DNA from: Sipunculus nudus
Taxonomy: Eukaryota; Annelida; Sipuncula; Golfingiida; Sipunculidae
Reading direction: 5' to 3'
Length of the DNA stretch: 64,000 nucleotides
Assembly (NCBI GenBank): GCA_026874595.1
Contig: CM049314.1
Coordinates: forward strand, 12,392,729 to 12,456,728
Below are positions 2,269 to 41,300 of this stretch, one piece after another. Both the position numbers and the translations under genes were made by a program. Position 1 is the first letter of the stretch, and each line of letters begins with the position of its first letter. The notes beneath the pieces are model-generated. The model did no database searches. It was not told where the DNA came from and worked only from the letters and a program-made list of their open reading frames with translations.

Positions 2269-2344
2269 ATGGCGGTCGTCACTGCATTGACTCTATTCAC
2301 CGTGATCAGTCTGGCCTCGGCGTGCAAGTTTTTATTCTGTTACA
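2269..2344 (+). CDS. Secreted two-module protein, exon 1 (signal peptide)
   Basis: It encodes residues 1-25 and the first base of codon 26. A hydrophobic stretch ends in ASA-C, a typical signal-peptidase site. The donor is 'ttaca|gtgtaa', which leaves one base and fits the phase of the next exon. The donor is not strong, so this junction is the least certain in the gene. Confidence 0.65.
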
Positions 2345-2913
2345 GTGTAAAAGTTTCTTAATAGAAAGCGTCTAAGCTTCTAAGAAATGTTCAAGCTAAA
2401 AACAAATTTCTGGATTATGATTAAAGTCTTTACAGAGAATCTTATTGAATAGACAGTGACATCAATCTTTCTTTTTCTTAAGTACATATGTTTACTTCTA
2501 TTCACAAATAAATCTTTAGTTATCAGCAACTAATGCTAACATCATGTCACATTAATCATAACAGCAGGTGTAAAAAAATTTACAAAATATAAGTGTACTT
2601 TAAACGTATAAATATACCAATATTTTTATGTTTTATTTCCTAAATATTTGTATATCGGTATATAGTGGGTTTGACTAGTTTTAAATGTTGGTTGTGTGCT
2701 TAATATATAGTGGTTTATTTTTATATTAATCTATACTTACAGGTTGTTGGGGCTCTACGGTCATACACGGTGATGATTCAGTAAACAGATGTTACATTGG
2801 AGCTGATACCAACGTTCTCTCTGTTATAAATAGTATTCAGGTTATCACAGTTGATGGTGACCTATATAAATGGGAATTTTACGCTGCACGCACTGGTATC
2901 GTTCATTTGCAGG

Positions 2914-2967
<54 letters not shown>

Positions 2968-5900
2968 AGAATATTGATCTTTTCTATTATACGCAAAGAT
3001 ATGTTGTGTTATTATCATTCGGCCACAACCAGATATCCTAAATACACATTTATACTATACCATTAAAAGAAATATTATGGTTTCTATATATTATCTATTT
3101 CTTGTAGTACATTAAAAAAATTTGACAATTCGTTTTAAATTTAAAAAAAAAACAATGAAAAAATAATCATTGAAGGTTTTTTTGGTATGAATACTTTTAC
3201 GTTTCCTCTGGATATCCATCAGATGTGTACTTTTGTATTTTGATGATCAGGCATTGTTTCTTCGATGCACCGAAATGAAACCTAATCTTTCCTGGGTCCT
3301 CGGGTTCAAAAAAATTAGAAACATTTTCAATAATGAGGTCGGGTCAACCCAATTTCAGAAAGTCATACATAATTCAAAAACTGGACACCTAAAGAGCACA
3401 GAGACTCTGATCTCCGACAAAAAGACTGATATTTCCTCATGCATCTTACAAATGAAGTTAGTTCATGAGTAGGAGATAACGAGAACCAACAATGTATTAG
3501 CTCTCGAAAATAACTCTGGTAAATGCTAAGTGTGCGTTAATTTTGTATAAGAAGATAATGGGGAAAATTTTGTGTACATTTATCGATAGATGTCTTTATC
3601 AGATTTTCAGATATATTGCCTCATCAGAATACAAACTAATCGGAGAAAGTATTTACAATGTTGAAAATACAGGAAGGACCGGAGGCTTGGTGAGCATACT
3701 TAATTATTTCACTTTCATTTTTTCCAGAAACATATGACGAAGTTCTAATATGAAATGTTCCATACATTTTATAATCCATGTTGATAAGGATGATAATAAA
3801 CATGCAAAGAAATTGAAAAATAAAAATGAAAATTCCTTTGCATTTATATATGCTGAGATGCACTTCCAAAAAAATGTTATTATAGAAAGCGGAATCACCC
3901 ACGGAACTTATATTTACGTTGTACCAGAGAGGATCAATTTATAAAGCATTGATATCAGTAATCTAAGATTGGTTATTACGTTTATTATCAAATAATGCTA
4001 CCTGTGTTTTTAGGGAACACGAATGAATTTGTTACTGATTTAAAGAGCTGATTTAAAGAAAACTGTTGACGTATTCTGGTGAATTCAAGCTTTCCCCGAA
4101 ATTTTCAATTAGGTTTGCCAACATGAAAACACGGAGGGGGGGGGGGTCATGACTCGCCATTGGCGGGCCTGCCGGACATAAACTAAAACGAGCAGCCTGT
4201 GTGCGTTTTCTATCATAAAAATATAAGACTAAAGAGATTATATTTAGCTAATAGATAAAAGTTGCGCATTTGCCTATACAGATGTTCATCAACAGGTTCC
4301 CTTAAAAGAAGGATATATCAAGGAAAGTTATTCCAAATGAAAATCAACACAATAAATCATGACATTGTATCTTTGATTTCAGGTAAACCCTCCACTGACG
4401 GTAAAGAAAGGTGATGTGATTGGGATTTATTCTCCAGGAGCAGAACTCATACCTTTTGATGAGAATGACTGCTCTTTCGGGAATTCACTGCGGGCTCTGT
4501 GCGTCAGCAAAGTAGTCGTTGGAGATAACGTTACGTTCATTCAAGAGGAAGGTCCGGTTCCCTGCAGACTATACTCCGTCATGGCTACCATCGAGATTGG
4601 TCAGGCGGGACAGTTTCTTCTTCGCGCTATACAACATAAGTTTGAAATTCAAAGATCATTTGTACATTATAAATAAATGTTTAATTACATAAGATAAAAC
4701 AATTAATATGACTTTTTTTTTATTTTGAATATGAAATGAACTTAAAAGATGAAAAGGTACAATGCTCATTCTGTTTATTGAATTATATGAGGTAAAGATG
4801 AATTTTTGGTGCAAAAAAACACAACGAATAAACCGGAAATTTTAACTAAACTTATATGGCAGATTCGAACGATTTTTCAAATATTCTGTGTAATATTATT
4901 CGCTCTGATCTTTTTTCGCCCGTTATAAGCCTCCCCGCAAGGATATTACCCAAATAACCGCAAATTGTTGGAACCGTGGCAAAACCGGATGTACATTTTA
5001 AACCCCAAGGAGTTCTTGAAGTTGGATGGTTATATAGTCTACTGGGAATTCTATGCTCGAAGAAGGGGAACAATTCATCTTCAGGTATTGTCTATCTGGC
5101 TTATGAATCATCTGTCATGTGGATAAGCCATAATTATATGAAGAGAAACATACCAGGCATTCTCGTGTATTTTCAAGAACTAATAGAGATATGTATTTTA
5201 CTCTTGCAAAATTGAATTTTCCATTCCTATTTTAGAAAATAGTTGATAACCGATTTCATTTCACTTGCAGGCGTATTACATATACCTTTATCGTTTCATT
5301 TTAAGATCTTTAGACAGGTTGCTGAGAAAACTTTCCGCATTATTGGAGAGACTGAATACACAGTCAATCGGACAGGATGGCAGCAAAAGCCGGTATGATG
5401 GCGTTAATGCAAGAGATATAAATGTCAGAGTAACGAACTATTTTTTTTTAATCTAAACTGATCATCCTGGTGATTAAATTTCCATTTGATTGTTGTTAGC
5501 TTATGCTGCAAGTGGAACTTGGTTCATTTTGATCCTAAAAATCATAAAACATGTTAATAATTTATCACCGATTAATTAGTGAAATAATTATTGCAATTTT
5601 CTATGACACATAATGGGTGCTACGAAAAATACCGCCAGCGATTTCCTTATATAGATATTGTGTGTAATTCTATCAGGATTTAACATATAATGTGGATATA
5701 TTCGCTAACGTTATGTTTACCATGGTATTATTGTCATTACCAGCTTTCTGAAGATTCTAAAATTGCTGTGAAAACTGGAGATGTGATCGGGTTCTATGTC
5801 CCTGGTCTTAACATCATCCCCTATGATGAAAAAAGCTGCTCAGAAGGAGTAACCCTGTACGTCAACAGTCCCCAGGGACGCAGAGTCGGGACGACCTTTT

Positions 5901-5977
5901 CTTTCAGTAATATCTCGAGTGATTTGCAGCCTTGCAGAAAATACTCCCTCGTCGCCTATGTTAAGGGTATATGTTAA
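2269..5977 (+). CDS. Predicted secreted protein with two tandem modules (seven exons, 337 aa), family not recognised
   Basis: Joined exons 2269-2344, 2743-2912, 3603-3689, 4383-4599, 4942-5084, 5306-5392 and 5744-5977 give 1014 nt without a stop until the last codon. The start ATG has A at -3 and G at +4. Residues 1-18 (MAVVTALTLFTVISLASA) form a signal peptide. Two copies of one module follow, residues about 27-184 and 184-337. Each has a WEFYA-R-G-(V/T)(I)HLQ segment, an IFR...(L/I)IGE...Y-V segment, a KxGDVIGxYxPG...IPxDE...C segment and a PCRxYS segment. Two cysteines per module (141/172 and 292/324) could form a disulfide. Each module is encoded by three exons with phases 1-0-0-1, and the middle exon is 87 bp in both. 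A poly(A) signal lies 11 nt after the stop. The role is unknown; an extracellular location is inferred from the signal peptide. Confidence 0.78.
2743..2912 (+). CDS. Secreted two-module protein, exon 2 (module A, part 1)
   Basis: The acceptor is 'ttacag' and the donor is 'ttgcag|gtatat'. It encodes residues 27-82, starting C-W-G and ending YKWEFYAARTGIVHLQ. This end matches YWEFYARRRGTIHLQ of exon 5. Confidence 0.8.
2913..2966. repeat. Compound microsatellite (TA)n(GA)n
   Basis: A run of 'ta' dinucleotides passes directly into a run of 'ga' dinucleotides, immediately after the donor of exon 2 of the secreted-protein gene. Confidence 0.95.
3603..3689 (+). CDS. Secreted two-module protein, exon 3 (module A, part 2)
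   Basis: The acceptor 'ctttatcag' precedes ATTTTCAG and the donor is 'ggcttg|gtgagc'. It is 87 bp, phase 0 on both sides. It encodes IFRYIASSEYKLIGESIYNV and nine more residues, aligning with exon 6, which has the same length. Confidence 0.78.
4383..4599 (+). CDS. Secreted two-module protein, exon 4 (module A, part 3)
   Basis: The acceptor is 'tgatttcag'. Residues 112-183 contain VKKGDVIGIYSPGAELIPFD and later VPCRLYS. It ends with one base before 'gtcagg', as the homologous exon 7 could at 5966. If the donor is not used, the frame runs to a TAA at 4674-4676. Confidence 0.8.
4672..4677 (+). promoter_or_regulatory. Candidate intronic poly(A) signal AATAAA
   Basis: AATAAA overlaps the TAA stop that ends the read-through frame of exon 4. 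Its use would give a one-module short form of the secreted protein. Confidence 0.4.
4942..5084 (+). CDS. Secreted two-module protein, exon 5 (module B, part 1)
   Basis: The acceptor is 'cccgcaag' and the donor is 'cttcag|gtattg'. A split glycine codon joins it to exon 4. The frame is open for 47 residues and ends LDGYIVYWEFYARRRGTIHL plus Q. The first half is poorly conserved with exon 2. Confidence 0.75.
5306..5392 (+). CDS. Secreted two-module protein, exon 6 (module B, part 2)
   Basis: The acceptor is 'cattttaag' and the donor is 'aagccg|gtatga'. It is 87 bp in phase 0, like exon 3. It encodes IFRQVAEKTFRIIGETEYTV and then NRTGWQQKP. Confidence 0.8.
5744..5977 (+). CDS. Secreted two-module protein, exon 7 (module B, part 3 and stop)
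   Basis: The acceptor is 'cattaccag'. It contains VKTGDVIGFYVPGLNIIPYD, two cysteines and QPCRKYSLVAYVKGIC, then TAA. A possible donor 'aagg|gtatat' at 5967 matches the module A exon, so a further module downstream is conceivable, but none was found. Confidence 0.78.
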   Translation, partial: LSEDSKIAVKTGDVIGFYVPGLNIIPYDEKSCSEGVTLYVNSPQGRRVGTTFSFSNISSDLQPCRKYSLVAYVKGIC

Positions 5978-5987
5978 GCATTCTCAA

Positions 5988-5993
5988 AATAAA
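5988..5993 (+). promoter_or_regulatory. Poly(A) signal of the secreted-protein gene
   Basis: AATAAA lies 11 nt after the TAA stop. This supports ending the gene here. Confidence 0.7.
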
Positions 5994-7399
5994 CATAACC
6001 TGTCTACTGAACCATTACCAGCTTATATATTATATGGAGTATGCAAAACCATAAACTTAACTGGCGTACATTAATTTTCGGTTGACGTAAACGTTTCATA
6101 TAGATTACATTAACCGCAAACGGTAATAAAAATTGCATATTATGTTCTCCCCTAAAGCGTACTCGATCTTTATTTAACGCACCATTTACAGGTGGATAAC
6201 ACGGTAGGACGATGGAGGTTCAGGTGGATAAACCGAATTCTTTTCAATAAAGAACAAATGTCTGATTTTGTTTTGTTTGCTTAAATTTTACGTTTACCGT
6301 TTGCTTTTTGCTGTTTCATCGTATATTATGTTAAACCAATGTGTTCAATCATCCAGTATCGTTCCATCGTCTTATTTAAAATGTTGCTTAGCAAACGTTT
6401 TGGTGAGTAAACATGATCAAACTGTTAACTGCATGTTGGCAATGCACGCAAATAACTCTCGTTGTTACAAACGATTTTAAGTAAACACCCATTCAATGTC
6501 GAGTGATCAGTAGAGATTTTGATCAGTGGCTGTATTTGGAATATTTTTTTTTCTGAAAATTTAAATAATCAATATGCGTCTTTCCTCAACGACATCAAAA
6601 CCGTAACCATAGAAACAAAAAAATCGGCAAATCATCTGGACAATCTGGACAATTCAGTAGTCAATGGTGGCATTTAAAGCTAAATTTATGATATGGAAGT
6701 TAAAGAGATTTGACCAATAAACATTCAGTTAACCATATTTTTCGGCTGAATAAATTATCTTAATTGATGGTTTCCAATAATACCCCCAGTGAATATAATA
6801 TATACAATAGGCAACATTTTAACCATCTTTATGTTATATGTTTTATACATACTTAAGCCCTTAACCTGTTGAGATCGTACATATATACATGTAAATAAAT
6901 CCTTTTCATATTTATGTATACTTATTATCCAAAATTGATTCATCAATGTTTTAATCAGTGTGTTCTGCGGAGGTAAATGCAGACCATGAATGGTCTAAAT
7001 AATGTCGAAATACCTAGGTATCTTTTCATTAACACCACTAGATGAAAATCAGCGCCTCCTGATTTACTAGAATTTCATGAGATGAGACATGCAAATTTAT
7101 TGTAGATTGATTAAAAAGAATGTGTCGTCCAAGTACATACATGGTTCTATCTCCAAACCATTTATGTTTATACCACTGACTTTCTCTGTTGACTTATTAG
7201 CAGTAATAATACTATGGCTAATAATGGCTAATGCGAACAGGCACGAGGTTATTGAATCCCTTGTAATGTACCTCTCTCCAATTTTCAATAACCACTGATG
7301 ATAACACAGTTATATGAGTCCTTGTGTAACATGTTAATTCATCTGACTGGTGCAGAAGTAATAGTCCATCAAATTAAAAAAAAATACTTCGTAACGATT

Positions 7400-20300: not shown

Positions 20301-23300
20301 AATAACCAATGTCACATTGGATTAAACTGTGTAGGTTACTGCATTATAGGATCACGACAATGGACCCCTGTGAAAAAAACCATGAAAAAACTTAAAATCA
20401 TGGAATATTTACCTCACAAATAAAAAGACCACAGTTTAAAACATAAGCATGCAAGATGTGTTGCTTCAACAGAACAAACTTTTTTATTCCTCTTTCTTGC
20501 AATTATTTCAGTTTCAATACTACATTCATAATTTGTATATTATAGCAAGGCAACCATCATGTTTGAATTATACATGTATGTTCAAAATGTATTTACTATT
20601 ATATGGTATTTAAGGTAATCTCATAATTCAAATATCATGTACAAATTGACATTATCAATTTCTTTCAATAATCAAAATTCATGGTATTATAAAATCATTT
20701 TGTAGCTATCTTCCTTGGTCTTTCACCAAAAGCACACTATTCAAGGAAAAACATCATCCTACCTCATAAAAATTAAAACCAATAAACCATTTTTTTTTCA
20801 AATGCTTGATGACAATCCCTGAAAATACTTTTGTATTCATTGGCATTGGTATTAGACTTACAAAAGTACAGTCTCTTTAACATTAATGGCACATCATTTA
20901 TTGTGGCAATGATGTTACAAAAACACAGATGAAACCTTAGTTTTTTTATTACCTGGAGGGGTCTTTCACCTTCCCCAATCATGTTCCTCCACTTCTCCAC
21001 GGATTGTCCCACGCTGACCAGTGCTGTTTCCCACAGCCTGACACAGCCACCCTGATCGACTGTCACCACTCCATCATTGCTCAGCTCTGACATCACCAGC
21101 TTCACCCCGTGGTTAGGTAACATCCATGAACTGTACGGGGACGGGTCTACCACACTGTCAATAACACGGTTATAACCAGTTTAATATTATGAAGATTGCA
21201 TCGCCAGCTTCACACTGTGGTTAGATGGCCCCCACAAACTGTATGGAGACGGGTCTACCACACTGTCATTAACCAGTTTCAAATTGTGAAGATTGCCTTT
21301 AGATTGCCTTTAAGTAATCAACAGCAGTACCATCTCGTACCAGTCTGTTACTGCCACACTACTGGTATTCATGATCTAAAGTGCCAACTTATCCTTAGGT
21401 ACATCTAATTCCTGATTTCTAATAATGAAATAGTAGATTTTACAACAACGGTTTTAAGCTGGGCCTATTCACCTTCTACAAGAAAAATGTGCACAATTGA
21501 AAAAGAAGTATTTTTCATAAGGTATGTACAAACATTTTCCAAGAAATCATTTGCTAATTCTGATTTTACCGGGAAAATATTTTCTTTTTACTTTCACTAG
21601 ATGTTAAAGGGGCCTATATGATATCTGAAGTCTTTAATTGAAGATAACACTTGAACATTTTATACAAGTAGGCCAAAAAACACTGATCCCAATGCTGTTT
21701 GATGAGGGGGGGGGGGGGGGGCAAAATAATTGAGACATGCTGCATGGACATTTGGGGGCAAGTGAGATGAACCAGAGTTTCAAAGGGCATTTTGCAACAG
21801 TGACGTTTCAACAAATATGCACCAACAACCTTAGGTTACTTGTTTTTGTCTATTTGTAAACACTGGCTCATGTACCAAATTTACCAACAGCTTGTAGATA
21901 GACAAGCTCATATGTCCATCAGAGACTCATTATATGGACCTTTCTTAGCAATAAGTACCTACAGTTATTTAAAGAAGCATTATCTAGTTGTATAAAAATC
22001 AGCTGTGGCCATCACTTGTGTGTTTTGCATCTTATTCAGTTCATATCCTCTAGTTAACCTTGTGTCTGAAATATTAGTCGTGACAGTTCAACCTTAACGC
22101 TATTTTCATAACCTAGTGTGGCAACAGGATAAGTGGCTTCTGCACAATACCTTGTCATTTTCAACGGCTATTTCATTGTTTTCAAGTGCATTTTTATGAG
22201 CTATGATGCAGCTGATCCCGAGATGCTGCTGTGTAAACACAGATTAGTACTTGCATCTAACACACAGACATACCGCTCCTGTGCATTATTTGGCCAGTTG
22301 AGCACCTGGGGCCAAAAGAGGATGAGCAAAAGGAATATTTCTTAGATCTCAAGCATTTTGTAACAGCTTTGTATGTTAGTTGATCTTTACGCAACTCCAT
22401 TTAATTTCTTTAACTAATAATATATGTATGCAAAATAACCCAGAAATCATGTAAATTCTACAGAAAAGGTAGGTGTACAGCTGGCTCTAAAAATCAGTTT
22501 ATAAATCAACACATAACTTCTTGATTTAGTTCTATGTAAATATAAAAACTCTTGTTCATGCTGAACATGTAGACTTCACCGCCTTTACTGCTCAGAGCAC
22601 CACTCATGACCTTTTAGACTGACACCTGTAACTCTCTCATTTGGCTAAATTTTTACAGATAAATCCATTTGCAGACATTTTGCAAATGTATCTTTAGTTC
22701 TAAAGATTTCCACCAACACAGAGCCAACCCTCTCTATAGTTCCTCTTGAAACAACCAAAAAAAATGAGCAAAATATTACCTGTCATGTAAGTAGCAAAAA
22801 TGTCAGAATACTGTGGTGCTTCATATATTTCGTTATTTTCACTTTTTCATTGTTTCGCGAGGGATCCATTTTCACAATATTTCCTTGCAGTAACCTACAC
22901 ATAGTATATCCTCCATTGTTATTTAATATGCGTGTGCTTTGTCTTAACAATTTGGCGAGGATATTGTGAAAATGACTAGAAATACTTGTTCCCTATATGC
23001 AGATAATATGAAAGATCTGATATTATCTATGGCTGTTCTTGATTTACAGGTATCATAAAACATATGTTATTATTCATAATATCAAATTTTTGTTTTTAGG
23101 TTTTAAATCTACAGGCTTGGTCGGGCAGATATAATACACCCAATTCAATTGAGGTTACATTTAAAAATTGACCGTTCATCTGTGTAGATGAGGGATCTTT
23201 TCACAAAGGTTTCATTTTCACCATTATTTGCCTTTCTCTATTATCGCAAATTTGAAATCCTTCTGATAAAAACAAGCATGACCTGTGACATCATGGACTG

Positions 23301-29300: not shown

Positions 29301-32300
29301 GGTAGGTGAATACATCAGGAGCATCCTTGTTTATTTATAATACAACAGAACTTAGTTTATCTGAAGAGCTCAGGGGACATGATTTTAGTTCGGGTAAATG
29401 ATTGTTCAGAAAAACAATTTAGCATGATTCATCACTTATGAATGACTGCCAACCTGCCACTGAGCAGTGGACTTTAAGAGACTGACAGACATGAATTCAT
29501 TAAGCCCGTCCAAAATAAATATTGGCAACATCATTTTTGTTAGGGTTTTCCATCAATTTAATCAATTTACCGTGTAAAATACATCAAATATTAGCCCTGG
29601 AAAATCAGAATTCAATGAGTTATTGAATTTTTTTCATTATTTGGATAAATGGTCACAAATTCAGTGATCAGTTTTCAGTTTTGAATCACCATTTTTTTCT
29701 GAAAAACAGTGTTAAGATAAATGACACTCTACAGTATATGTCACATATATACACCAGTTTTGTAGTTTTCTGTGTGATAAAATGATACTTATCATACAGC
29801 TGTCCACTGTTTATGTGGGAGTTTTTATGTTTTCATAATTGTATATATAAACCTTCTATATATGAATCCAACTAGTGGGCTAATAAGTAACTTTTTGTTT
29901 TTCAGACCAATCATGCTTTTTATATTTCCAGTTTGTTAGAGAGGACCTATTTAAACCCTTTTTAATTAAGAAATTAAGATTTTAATTATAAAAAATAACA
30001 ACATACAACTTGATCTCTGAAGTGACGTGTGACTTTCTCAGCAGCAGCCTCCAGCATGGTGGTAGTGGCGAGACGACTAACTTCCCCTGTCTCTGTGTTT
30101 ATGTTCAGCAGTGTGTTTGTCTGCAGGAATAGAGAGGATCGGCAAGGTGAAGTTCAGGAAGGTCAGCAAGTGATGAATTTTCATTAATCTACAGTATGTG
30201 TAAATTAACTAGAATGGAAAGACACTGGTATGAGTTATCAAGGATGTTGTCTCTGAGGGAGTGGCCATGTTTTCATCAATGACATATAAGAAAGGATGAA
30301 ATCAATATGCCCCTGGCTGATTGCTGTGTCTATATACTGTGCGATACTTGGAAACTCTTTTGGTGAACTCTTCTTGTATGATGCAAGACTTTCAATGCTG
30401 GAAATTACTTACAGATAACAAAAATATAATTTTAAAACTCTGGTATTTGACTCAGATGTGAATAACATCTATATACAAATGGGACTATAGACACTGAAGA
30501 AAAAAACAATATGAAATTTTAATTCTGACTCTTTATGCAAAAAGGCTAACCTTAAGATTTCCATCATATATATACTGACAACTGAGTGACACGGTGGGTC
30601 CATCAAAGAGGCAGGTTAAAAGACTCTTTAATGAGACCAACACTACTAATCCTACCACTTTTTTTGTCTAGACACGTGTAAAATTTGTGAAGTTTTTATT
30701 ATTTGCACTACTAGTATACTACATGGACATTTTTTGTTTTGACACAATTATCATGGAAAGCGAAGGATATTGGGCACAGTCCTGCCCTGGGTTATAACTG
30801 ACTGATGTGAAGATCTCTACTTGCAATTAATGAATAAATGCTGATTGTATTCCCTTAACCATACTTATACTGGTAATAAAATCCTTGCAATATAACTGAA
30901 CCAGCCTCACCACTCCTTCATGTAGCACCACATTGGTGTCAAGAGGGAAACCTAACACGGCAATCTGCACCCTGGGTCGGAAGTTGTATCGCATGTTTGG
31001 GAAGATGTCATAAAGGTCAAGGTAGGTCAAGTGTTGGCTCCCTGGGGTCATTGAGTACAGGCTGATGGGGTTTGCCGTTGCTACATGTATGACATCAGAG
31101 GTCTGTGAACCAGGCTGTCTGTTGGCAGCTGAAAAATATATTAAAAGATGCTGAAATACAACTGTATGAGTGTGGGTTCAAACATATACATAACAACAGT
31201 GTACAGGCCATGTTTCTACACACTCTTATTTCCTGCATTTTTACAGACATCACGACTGAATTTTTAGTAAAAGTAAATGTAAACATGGCCATAAAACTGT
31301 ATGTTTAATCTTGGGTGTCTGTCAAAGAGTAATATAACTAGGTCGGAAATGATCCTGTACCGAATATTGGTAAAAATCTGGTCACTGATTGACATTTGTT
31401 GTTATAATATTAATATTTGTACATCTAGAGTCCTGTAATTTGTTTAAATGATCAAATGGATTTTCCAGTAGATAAAACTCTGGCTATTAGAAGTCAATGA
31501 TGATGAATCTCATGACAATATCTCAAGTGTTTTTTTTTTTCCTCTATTATATCTCTATCTACCTTAAAACTGAAATTTTAAATTTGTATTCAATAAAAAA
31601 TTTAAAATTTAATTTTTCACCAAGAAGAAACACAATAAATGAAAAACAAACAGAAAACCTTTTGAGATATTTTCATGCTGTTTAATAATAGTCCACAAAA
31701 AAGTGGCTAACTGTTCTGGGTGCTTTAAAGAGAGTACCTTTAAATTTTTTTTAAATATTACAAAAACATGTTAAAATGAATGAAAAGATAAAAAAAATAG
31801 TTCTGCATCAGAAAGATCACTGTACCAGGTTTTATACTAATAATTCCTTTATGGTTCTAATATGAACTTAAAACAATTTTTGGACTGATTTTAGATGTAG
31901 TGCATGGTTTTTGTCAGTTCTGCTACTGAACACAACTCACCTTTGGCCACAGCCAGGTCCATGATGATACTGGTCTCATGTAGGGGGAGCGTCCAGAAGG
32001 CCTCCTGCTCCGTGAACATTAGTGACCGCGCCTCCGTCCTCTCAACAGGATGGGACTGAACACCCATCTTTATTGGTCCCTATGGTAACAGATCATCAAA
32101 TCTTGAATAAATTTGAAATAACTCAGGCGAGACCATTTTCATTATCTAGGTTATGATAAAGAATTTATCAAATGCAATCTTTGTGTGGCCTTGCTTAAGA
32201 TTTTTATTTCATTAAATAACTGTGAAATATTGGGAGAGTTATAAAGAAACTACTTACTAATTATATCATTGTATATTTCTCATGTTTGTTCTCTGTTATT

Positions 32301-38300: not shown

Positions 38301-41300
38301 CAAATAGTGTGATATTTTAACTGCTTAAATCTTAAATATTAGGAAAGTACTTATTCTACTCTAACATGGTTAAGTTTAGTTTTCACCGAGTTCAGCAATA
38401 AATGTTGATAATCTTATATACTACACAGGTCTTTCTTAGTAAATTTATGCAAGCCCATACAGGTTTATAAAGACTTCATGACCTCAGATTTTCTATGCAA
38501 GAGGCACCAAAAAGTTAAGCCCAACACAAGTCATGATATACAAGGCTATCTGAGAAGACATAACACAGTTCATTACACATGGAGAAGTTAAGCCCCACAC
38601 AAGTCATGATATACAAGGCTATTTGAGAAGACATAACACAGTTCATTACACATGGAAAAGTTAAGCCCCACACAAGTCATGATATACAAGGCTATCTGAG
38701 AAGACATAACACAGTTCATTACACATGGAGAAGTTAAGCCCCACACAAGTCATGATATACAAGGTTATCTGTGAAGACATAACACAGTTCATTACACATG
38801 GAGAAGTTAAGCCCCACACAAGTCATGATATACAAGGCTATCTGAGAAGACATAACACAGTTCATTACACATGGAGAAGTTAAGCCCCACACAAGTCATG
38901 ATATACAAGGCTATCTGAGAAGACATAACACAGTTCATTACACATGGAGAAGTTAAGCCCCACACAAGTCATGATATACAAGGCTATCTGAGAAGACATA
39001 ACACAGTTCATTACACATGGAGAAGTTAAGCCCCACACAAGTCATGATATACAAGGCTATCTGAGAAGACATAACACAGTTCATCACACACGGAGAAGTT
39101 AAGCCCTACACAAGTCATGATATACAAGGCTATCTGAGAAGACATAACACAGTTCCTAAAACAAGTGGGGATCTCGGGTTCAGGATTTTATTTTAAAGTT
39201 TGATTTGAATAAGGGAGCTTACTCAGCTGAGAAGTGCATTGTTTAAGCCATTTGGCTGCTTGATATCCCTGGATCTTCTTTTTCCGCTTACTATAATTAT
39301 CATCATAAAAATCATCATTTACACAGGTTAAGAAAATATTTTGATATATCCTACCTCTATATGCCTGACCATGTTGACAACCTCTCTGGTGGAGTATGGG
39401 TAGGAGATCTGGCCTTGGTCTGCCATGTCTCTCAGTTCACCAAATGCCAACACTAATTTCTTCAGGATATCTTCAGGCACGTTAGGTCCGTATTTCTGCA
39501 GCATAGCCATCTCTGATGCAGGGTCTGGGTTATCCACAGCGTGGGCACTGAATATATCACCTACAAAATAAGAACTAGATGCTATCGCAAACCGATCACC
39601 AGAAGCCTCCCCCAGAGGCCTGCAACTGAGCGATATGAGAAAACAGCAATTGAGTGTATAACCTCGGGAATAAGGTCAAGGTCACAAATAAATATTTGGT
39701 GCAAATCTGTGACCTAGAACTAATATTGAGCCAAAATTTAAGCTTTTGAAAATCCGCCATTTCGGATATCTATAACAACAAGAAAATGGTGCAAAAATAA
39801 AAAATAATTTAAAATTGATAGTTTTGCCCTTGGGGGGACCCAAGTAGGTTCATCCACAAAAAACTTTCCTGCAGGAGGAGGCTTTATTTTTTTTCATATC
39901 TGAGAGAATCTAAAGGAGAATATAGCAATACCCCACCTGACATAACCAGTTATACTGAACAGGGCTGAAAATTCATTATTTGTTACCGTAAAATCTCCAC
40001 TTAAAACCGCGGTTTAATTAAGAAATTCAAAATCTTGAAATCGGGTTGATTTCCTGAAAGCACTGTGCGGTTTATACTAGAAGGGTTTCCTGAATATCTT
40101 CCTGACAGACATCCTTTTTGGGCCGGCGAGTGGGCGATAATATCACAACTTTCGAAGGCCGTTCTTAGCAGCAGTCTCGCATGCATGGCAGCCGTGTGTA
40201 AATGTGTTATTTACGATTATTTGTTATTTATAGATTAAATATTGCTGATTTGTTTTCATGTGATATATAACTTGTTATAAAATCTTGGTAACTGTCAACA
40301 AATAATACGTTTACAACAACCCTGCTGTAACACACAGCGGCCCACTTCGTTGGGCATGGTCAAGCAAAATTGAAATAAAAGCCTACTTTAAACCCATTTG
40401 CGGCATTATTTAGCAATGATTATTTGTTTCAAACGTAAAATGAATAAAAGGCTGACATTGTAAAGAGTCACACAATGGCAGACGATCGTTTTAAAATCAA
40501 GTTTGAGTGCCGCCATGTGCTGAAACGCCCTGGTATTCTGCCAAGAATATTTTGAACGGCTGTACGCTGTGGGTGGTAAACAGAACAGCCACCTATTTCG
40601 TCCCATCGTGCCTTGCGCGAACAGTGCCTTGACAAAATGGCTCCCCACACGGAAACTTTCTTCAGGAAAAAACTTGCTTACCCGGACTGGCCACTTTAAT
40701 TTTACCTTAAAATCACTCGTTTTCAAGCGTCATGTTTCCTATACGTGCGTATCTCGACAAGGTAACTTCAGTTACTTTGATATTTAGTTAAGTAGACCAG
40801 CGATGTTTTCAAACGCACCAGCAAATTGTGACATGGAGCGATGTCAACGTACAATGTGACGATGATAATACCGAAGTAACCGGTATGAAAATGATTTGAA
40901 TCTTCCGAGTAATTCCAGAAAATGGAATTTTCATCAAAAATTAAGATTTCAAAATATTACTTTTAGAATTAAAATATACAGTGACTTGAAATGGATCAGC
41001 AGAATATTTTTTTTTCCAAAATATAATGACAAATCGGTAGTAAACAAGAATACGGCACGGAATATAAAATCTGTATAAACAGGCAGAGGTTCATCGGCCC
41101 TTACGTCTTCCCAAACTTCATGCTTGAGTGACCCTGCAAAAAAAAGTGTTATGATGTGTTTAAATAATATGCCCAAGGAATTTTAATGTGGACAGGAATG
41201 GCCGAGTCGCAACATACGCCTGTTCATTTCTAGATGATAGCTTGATTGTGTCTTTTGTCAAATCATTCCGTAGCAAAAGTTGGTGCGGTTTTAAAGGGGG

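Follow-up and report, generated by a model that had tools for sequence, protein, structure and literature searches.

A candidate secreted-protein gene of Sipunculus nudus carries in duplicate a putative extracellular module that has no name and recurs across the genome

What kind of protein is encoded at positions 2269-5977 of the window, the 64-kb stretch of Sipunculus nudus DNA analysed here (C9:12392729-12456728, C9 being contig CM049314.1), and does it belong to any known family? Rebuilding the exons from the sequence gave a plus-strand model of seven exons and 1005 nt, corresponding to 334 codons and a stop, Table 1. These exons join into a single frame, as a preliminary description of the locus had proposed, although that description counted 337 codons, and its three exons per module, with identical phases and a middle exon of 87 bp in both modules, are borne out: the phases run 1-0, 0-0 and 0-1 in module 1 and 1-0, 0-0 and 0-stop in module 2. 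Directly before the stop of module 2, at 5966/5967, stands a G|GT at the donor position of relatives of the module described below. All introns are of the GT...AG type apart from the GC donor of exon 1, whose sequence T|GCAAGT is a good GC-donor consensus. The putative signal peptide was judged by inspection, and has Ala-Ser-Ala ahead of the cut. Dinucleotide repeats of AT and AG occupy 2917-2970, directly past the donor of exon 2, and the frame of exon 2 is open into them.

Table 1 Features of the gene model in window positions (held-out E, E-value with the profile that omits window sequence; copies B and C, tandem copies of the gene)
Feature	Position	Strand	Content	Phase and ends	Support
Exon 1	2269-2323	+	ATG and signal-peptide-like stretch MAVVTALTLFTVISLASA	Phase-1 end at GC donor T|GCAAGT	Same in copy B; copy C shares the GC donor
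Exon 2	2743-2912	+	Module 1, first part, through WEFYAARTGIVHLQ	1 to 0	Held-out E 3.4e-6
Exon 3	3603-3689	+	Module 1, middle, 87 bp	0-0	Both tandem copies retain its splice sites
Exon 4	4383-4599	+	Module 1, last part: GDVIGIYSPG, IPFDE, PCRLYS	Phase-1 end at weak donor TTG|GTCAGG	Held-out E 8.2e-16
Possible alternative end	4600-4677	+	Exon 4 frame open to stop at 4674-4676, overlapping AATAAA at 4672-4677		
Exon 5	4930-5084	+	Module 2, first part	1 to 0	Held-out E 5.4e-8
Exon 6	5306-5392	+	Module 2, middle, 87 bp	0-0	Held-out E only 0.1
Exon 7	5744-5977	+	Module 2, last part: GDVIGFYVPG, IPYDE, PCRKYS	Stop TAA at 5975-5977	Held-out E 9.3e-19
Possible poly(A) signal	5988-5993	+	AATAAA		Sequence; not retained as AATAAA in copy B

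The two modules, of about 150 residues each, share 37% identity across 146 aligned residues (E 2e-32), and contain the motifs that had been listed for them (WEFYAAR/WEFYARR, IFR, IGE, GDVIGIYSPG/GDVIGFYVPG, IPFDE/IPYDE and PCRLYS/PCRKYS) together with the two cysteines, both of which are common to the two modules. This identity, the equal phases and the signal-like start support the two-module, secreted-looking protein of the preliminary description. The locus has the appearance of a genuine secreted-protein gene. We then searched the 2445 stop-to-stop frames of the window with a held-out profile, built from 41 copies elsewhere in the genome in which the module is unsplit by introns, and containing no window sequence. 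Exons 7, 4, 5 and 2 were matched with E-values of 9.3e-19 to 3.4e-6, exon 6 reached 0.1, and these matches run in order on the plus strand; exon 3 had no match at E 10. Nothing else in the window was significant, the six other matches having E 6 or worse, and the best E-values in the controls were 1.5 when the window was reversed and between 0.07 and 3.6 in five shuffles. Since the controls reach such values, the match to exon 6 carries no significance by itself. All six module exons are matched when the window modules are included in the profile, exon 3 then at E 0.023, and support for exons 3 and 6 comes mainly from the splice sites and frame retained in tandem copies. Elsewhere in the window, open frames lie at 39328-39675 (minus strand), 30827-31177 and 20773-21180; the first, which is reminiscent of the VWA8 protein, matched in Pfam only CbbQ_C, at E 0.021 and below the cut-off, while nothing telling was found in Pfam for the other two.

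The tandem copies form an array at C9:12.325-12.398 Mb, whose final match is the window gene. In copy B (about 12.366 Mb) all exons are present with the same splice dinucleotides and the full frame is kept, with a dN of 0.025 and a dS of 0.059 relative to the window gene (dN/dS 0.42). Copy C (about 12.337 Mb) likewise has all exons, at equal lengths, and carries one in-frame stop in exon 2 and a poorer exon 4 donor than the window gene; leaving out the stop codon, dN is 0.061 and dS 0.192 (dN/dS 0.32). Two more copies are partial or broken, so that the array mixes intact and decayed members.

The module is far from confined to this array. In the 1.43-Gb genome, module 1 as a query returned at least 103 matches (E up to 10), an unsplit copy at least 78 at E 1e-3, and a module from a second locus on C9, at 55 Mb, at least 88. 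The matches to the unsplit copy resolve into at least 60 distinct unsplit places, each spanning both intron positions in one stretch, and distributed over C7 (41), C4 (9), C12 (4), C3 (3), C16, C8 and C9 (1 each), so that 59 lie outside C9; internal stops occur in 7 of these 60, and the remaining 18 of the at least 78 matches consist of lone exons, second pieces and partial matches. We fetched 52 short loci with matches, aligned the 41 that had at least 145 residues, and kept 40 after one near-copy was dropped. Among the nearly invariant columns of the resulting alignment are G, R, FxFxA, G, QxWR, GD, IP, G, F, C and YS. Ten close pairs gave dN/dS values of 0.21-0.61 in eight cases, and 0.96 and 1.28 in two where few changes were present. 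The window gene is one branch of a large family, and we have dropped its reading as an isolated gene. On the minus strand of C3, at 57861513-57878911, three unsplit copies with equal scores lie about 8.5 kb apart, which would reflect either a triplication of recent date or an artefact of the assembly, and a locus at C13:70.49-70.50 Mb (local positions 6350-7159 and 5146-5583, minus strand) holds two distant relatives of the module in which GDxIGVHY replaces GDVIGxY.

The boundaries of the module are of a consistent kind. Using a simple score, the best-scoring donor was in phase 1 in 19 of 20 unsplit copies and the best-scoring acceptor in 18 of 20, and in the window both ends of module 1 and the start of module 2 are phase-1 boundaries. 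The module thus has phase 1 at both ends, as class 1-1 extracellular modules do, and phase-symmetrical modules can be shuffled or skipped with the frame left intact.

Exons of named extracellular domains lie beside many of the relatives. PAN_1 scored above its cut-off in the downstream exon of each of the four unsplit copies tested. In a proximity count comparing 57 of the at least 103 module matches with 44 of 87 PAN-like matches, 34 of the 57 copies had a PAN-like match on their own strand no more than 13 kb downstream, 26 of them within 0.9 kb, and for 23 none was found downstream within that distance; upstream matches were present for 8 copies, the nearest at least 3.4 kb away. The 64-kb window itself contains no PAN-like match. 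When 8-9 kb around each of six further copies was examined, one copy had SRCR exons on both sides, one was followed by a PAN_1 exon and one by two trypsin exons; among the other three, where the scan covered a single exon of one copy, no named partner emerged. These neighbours are adjacent on one strand, and it is from genomic order that we infer that they form one gene with the module. Between a module exon and the trypsin exons at C12:75.92-75.93 Mb stand two exons that contain Trp and Cys and resemble each other (local positions 6441-6857 and 5229-5621, minus strand); they have no Pfam match, and are perhaps another unnamed module.

The second locus on C9, at 55 Mb and 43 Mb away from the window, bears on the age of the two-module arrangement. 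Here ordered exon matches, one of them, to a middle exon, being weak (E 0.14), fit one gene in which a signal-peptide-like exon precedes the exons of four modules and a second gene with two; the modules are split into three exons like those of the window, and Thr/Pro-rich stretches lie ahead of the later ones. All eight split modules fall into one clade (95/92) in a tree of 49 modules, as do the nine split modules in a tree of 27 rows (95/94). The window modules are sisters in neither best tree, and a tree constrained to unite them is worse by 2.5 log units (p-AU 0.375). The preliminary description had explained the two modules by copying of an exon triplet within the gene: the best trees do not group them, although such a grouping is not rejected at that p-AU. 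Because two- and four-module genes of the same three-exon type exist at 55 Mb, the doubling may instead predate the window gene.

A named domain with these motifs had not been recognised in the preliminary description, and no significant match was found in Pfam-A, NCBIfam or PDB sequences, no family in the first two exceeding its curated cut-off and the best PDB chain sequence reaching E 0.66. With the 40 members, three Pfam families were matched by a single member each (E 0.0097 for Toxin_4, 0.032 and 0.083), which we take as chance. Seven members searched against PHROGs gave a best E of 0.031, for one member against a tail fibre family, and this was not taken as real. A pattern search of prokaryote and viral contigs gave matches of which none was confirmed, and tblastn with one module each against plasmids and phages gave best E-values of 1.0 and 0.7, the best plasmid match being dropped as it lies on the opposite strand to the annotated genes beneath it. 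In the literature searched, a module of this kind is mentioned in no title or abstract opening, and WEFYA, GDVIGFY, GDVIGWY and WRFYA are absent as text strings.

Two known families invite comparison. DUF4082 (PF13313), a bacterial domain of unknown function, is the family matched at E 0.032, in mid-domain by one of the 40 members, and its conserved stretches are similarly ordered; membership was rejected, the score being 14.6 bits against a cut-off of 28.4, and the DUF4082 model run across the genome gave one match at an unrelated place (E 1.69, 18.3 bits, below cut-off). PAN/apple domains (PF00024) resemble the module as small extracellular modules and, as noted, follow the four unsplit copies tested, but an identity with them was rejected: no PAN model matches the module, and the PAN exon is separate. 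A broader parallel is offered by EGF, SRCR and sushi domains, which are exon-shuffled phase 1-1 extracellular modules. Like these, the module has phase-1 flanks, and its exons lie singly, in tandem and next to exons of other extracellular domains; unlike them, the window branch has two phase-0 introns inside the module, and no sequence relation to a named one was found. We rate it as a putative mobile extracellular module without a name, whose relatives may exist under other names in animals beyond this genome.

As to the fold, the module consensus has short stretches of alternating hydrophobic residues, and both cysteine columns are Cys in 34 of 43 modules, with the second only in 7 and neither in 2. 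From these stretches and columns we infer a mainly beta, disulphide-bonded fold; a structure prediction that used two window exons, and so covered the module's last part, had a mean pLDDT of 36 and was discarded. In the reading that we prefer, the gene would encode a secreted protein in which an unnamed extracellular module, about 150 residues long and probably composed mainly of beta-strands, is present twice, a disulphide in each joining the Cys after IPxD to that of PCRxYS. The phase-1 introns bounding the module would permit its gain, loss and combination without a break in the frame. Judged by exon order, it occurs in this genome on its own ahead of a PAN exon, as groups of two to four, some with Thr/Pro-rich spacers, and beside SRCR, trypsin and PAN. 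Each copy would bind a ligand, a glycan or a protein, outside the cell, and tandem copies would raise avidity. Extracellular recognition is favoured because the window protein has a signal-like start and three N-glycosylation sites, and because PAN, SRCR and protease exons neighbour the module elsewhere. Points that weigh against the reading are the non-standard donors of exons 1 and 4, the stops in 7 of the 60 unsplit relatives, the 23 of 57 copies with no PAN-like match close by, the 7 of 43 modules with Cys in the second column only, and the low pLDDT. The module probably represents a new type of binding module, and for the complete reading, a secreted two-module protein with mainly beta-strand, disulphide-bonded recognition modules, we consider the chances about evenly balanced.

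The main rival is a structural part in a secreted matrix, such as mucus, egg coat, shell or cuticle, whose modules would associate with each other and bind no outside ligand. Tandem modules, the Thr/Pro-rich spacers at C9:55 Mb and the many copies are what such a part might look like, but the company of SRCR, PAN and trypsin fits recognition or proteolysis better than a matrix role, and we hold the matrix reading to be unlikely.

The exon structure itself leaves room for products with mainly one module, by reading exon 4 through to its own stop and AATAAA or by splicing exon 1 to exon 5, a junction that phase allows (both are phase 1). The exon 4 donor is weak, the frame is open over 4377-4676 with an AATAAA at its end (Table 1), and the read-on frame is open in the two best tandem copies as well (99 aa each). 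Yet that donor sits at the phase-1 donor position of the unsplit relatives, the genes at C9:55 Mb have two to four consecutive modules, and exons 5-7 have neither a start codon nor a signal stretch of their own, a stop directly upstream of exon 5 closing the frame. One-module products seem quite unlikely as the main output. That the window gene is a decaying, unexpressed copy, as the stop in copy C and the partial or broken state of two other array members might suggest, is highly improbable given the intact frames of the window gene and copy B, their dN/dS of about 0.42 and held-out E-values down to 9e-19.

Returning to the two-module recognition protein, one could tentatively speculate further that a new domain family, expanded in this lineage to more than 60 copies and combined with PAN, SRCR and protease domains, makes up a diverse set of secreted recognition proteins whose role would parallel that of the fibrinogen-related or C1q-like repertoires of molluscs; we regard this wider proposal as possible, at less than even chances. 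At least 60 copies without a match in Pfam (2025), NCBIfam or PDB sequences mean that part of the probable secretome of this animal is unannotated. The alignments suffice for a profile with which to ask which animals carry the module, and its PAN, SRCR and trypsin neighbours point toward where its function may be sought.
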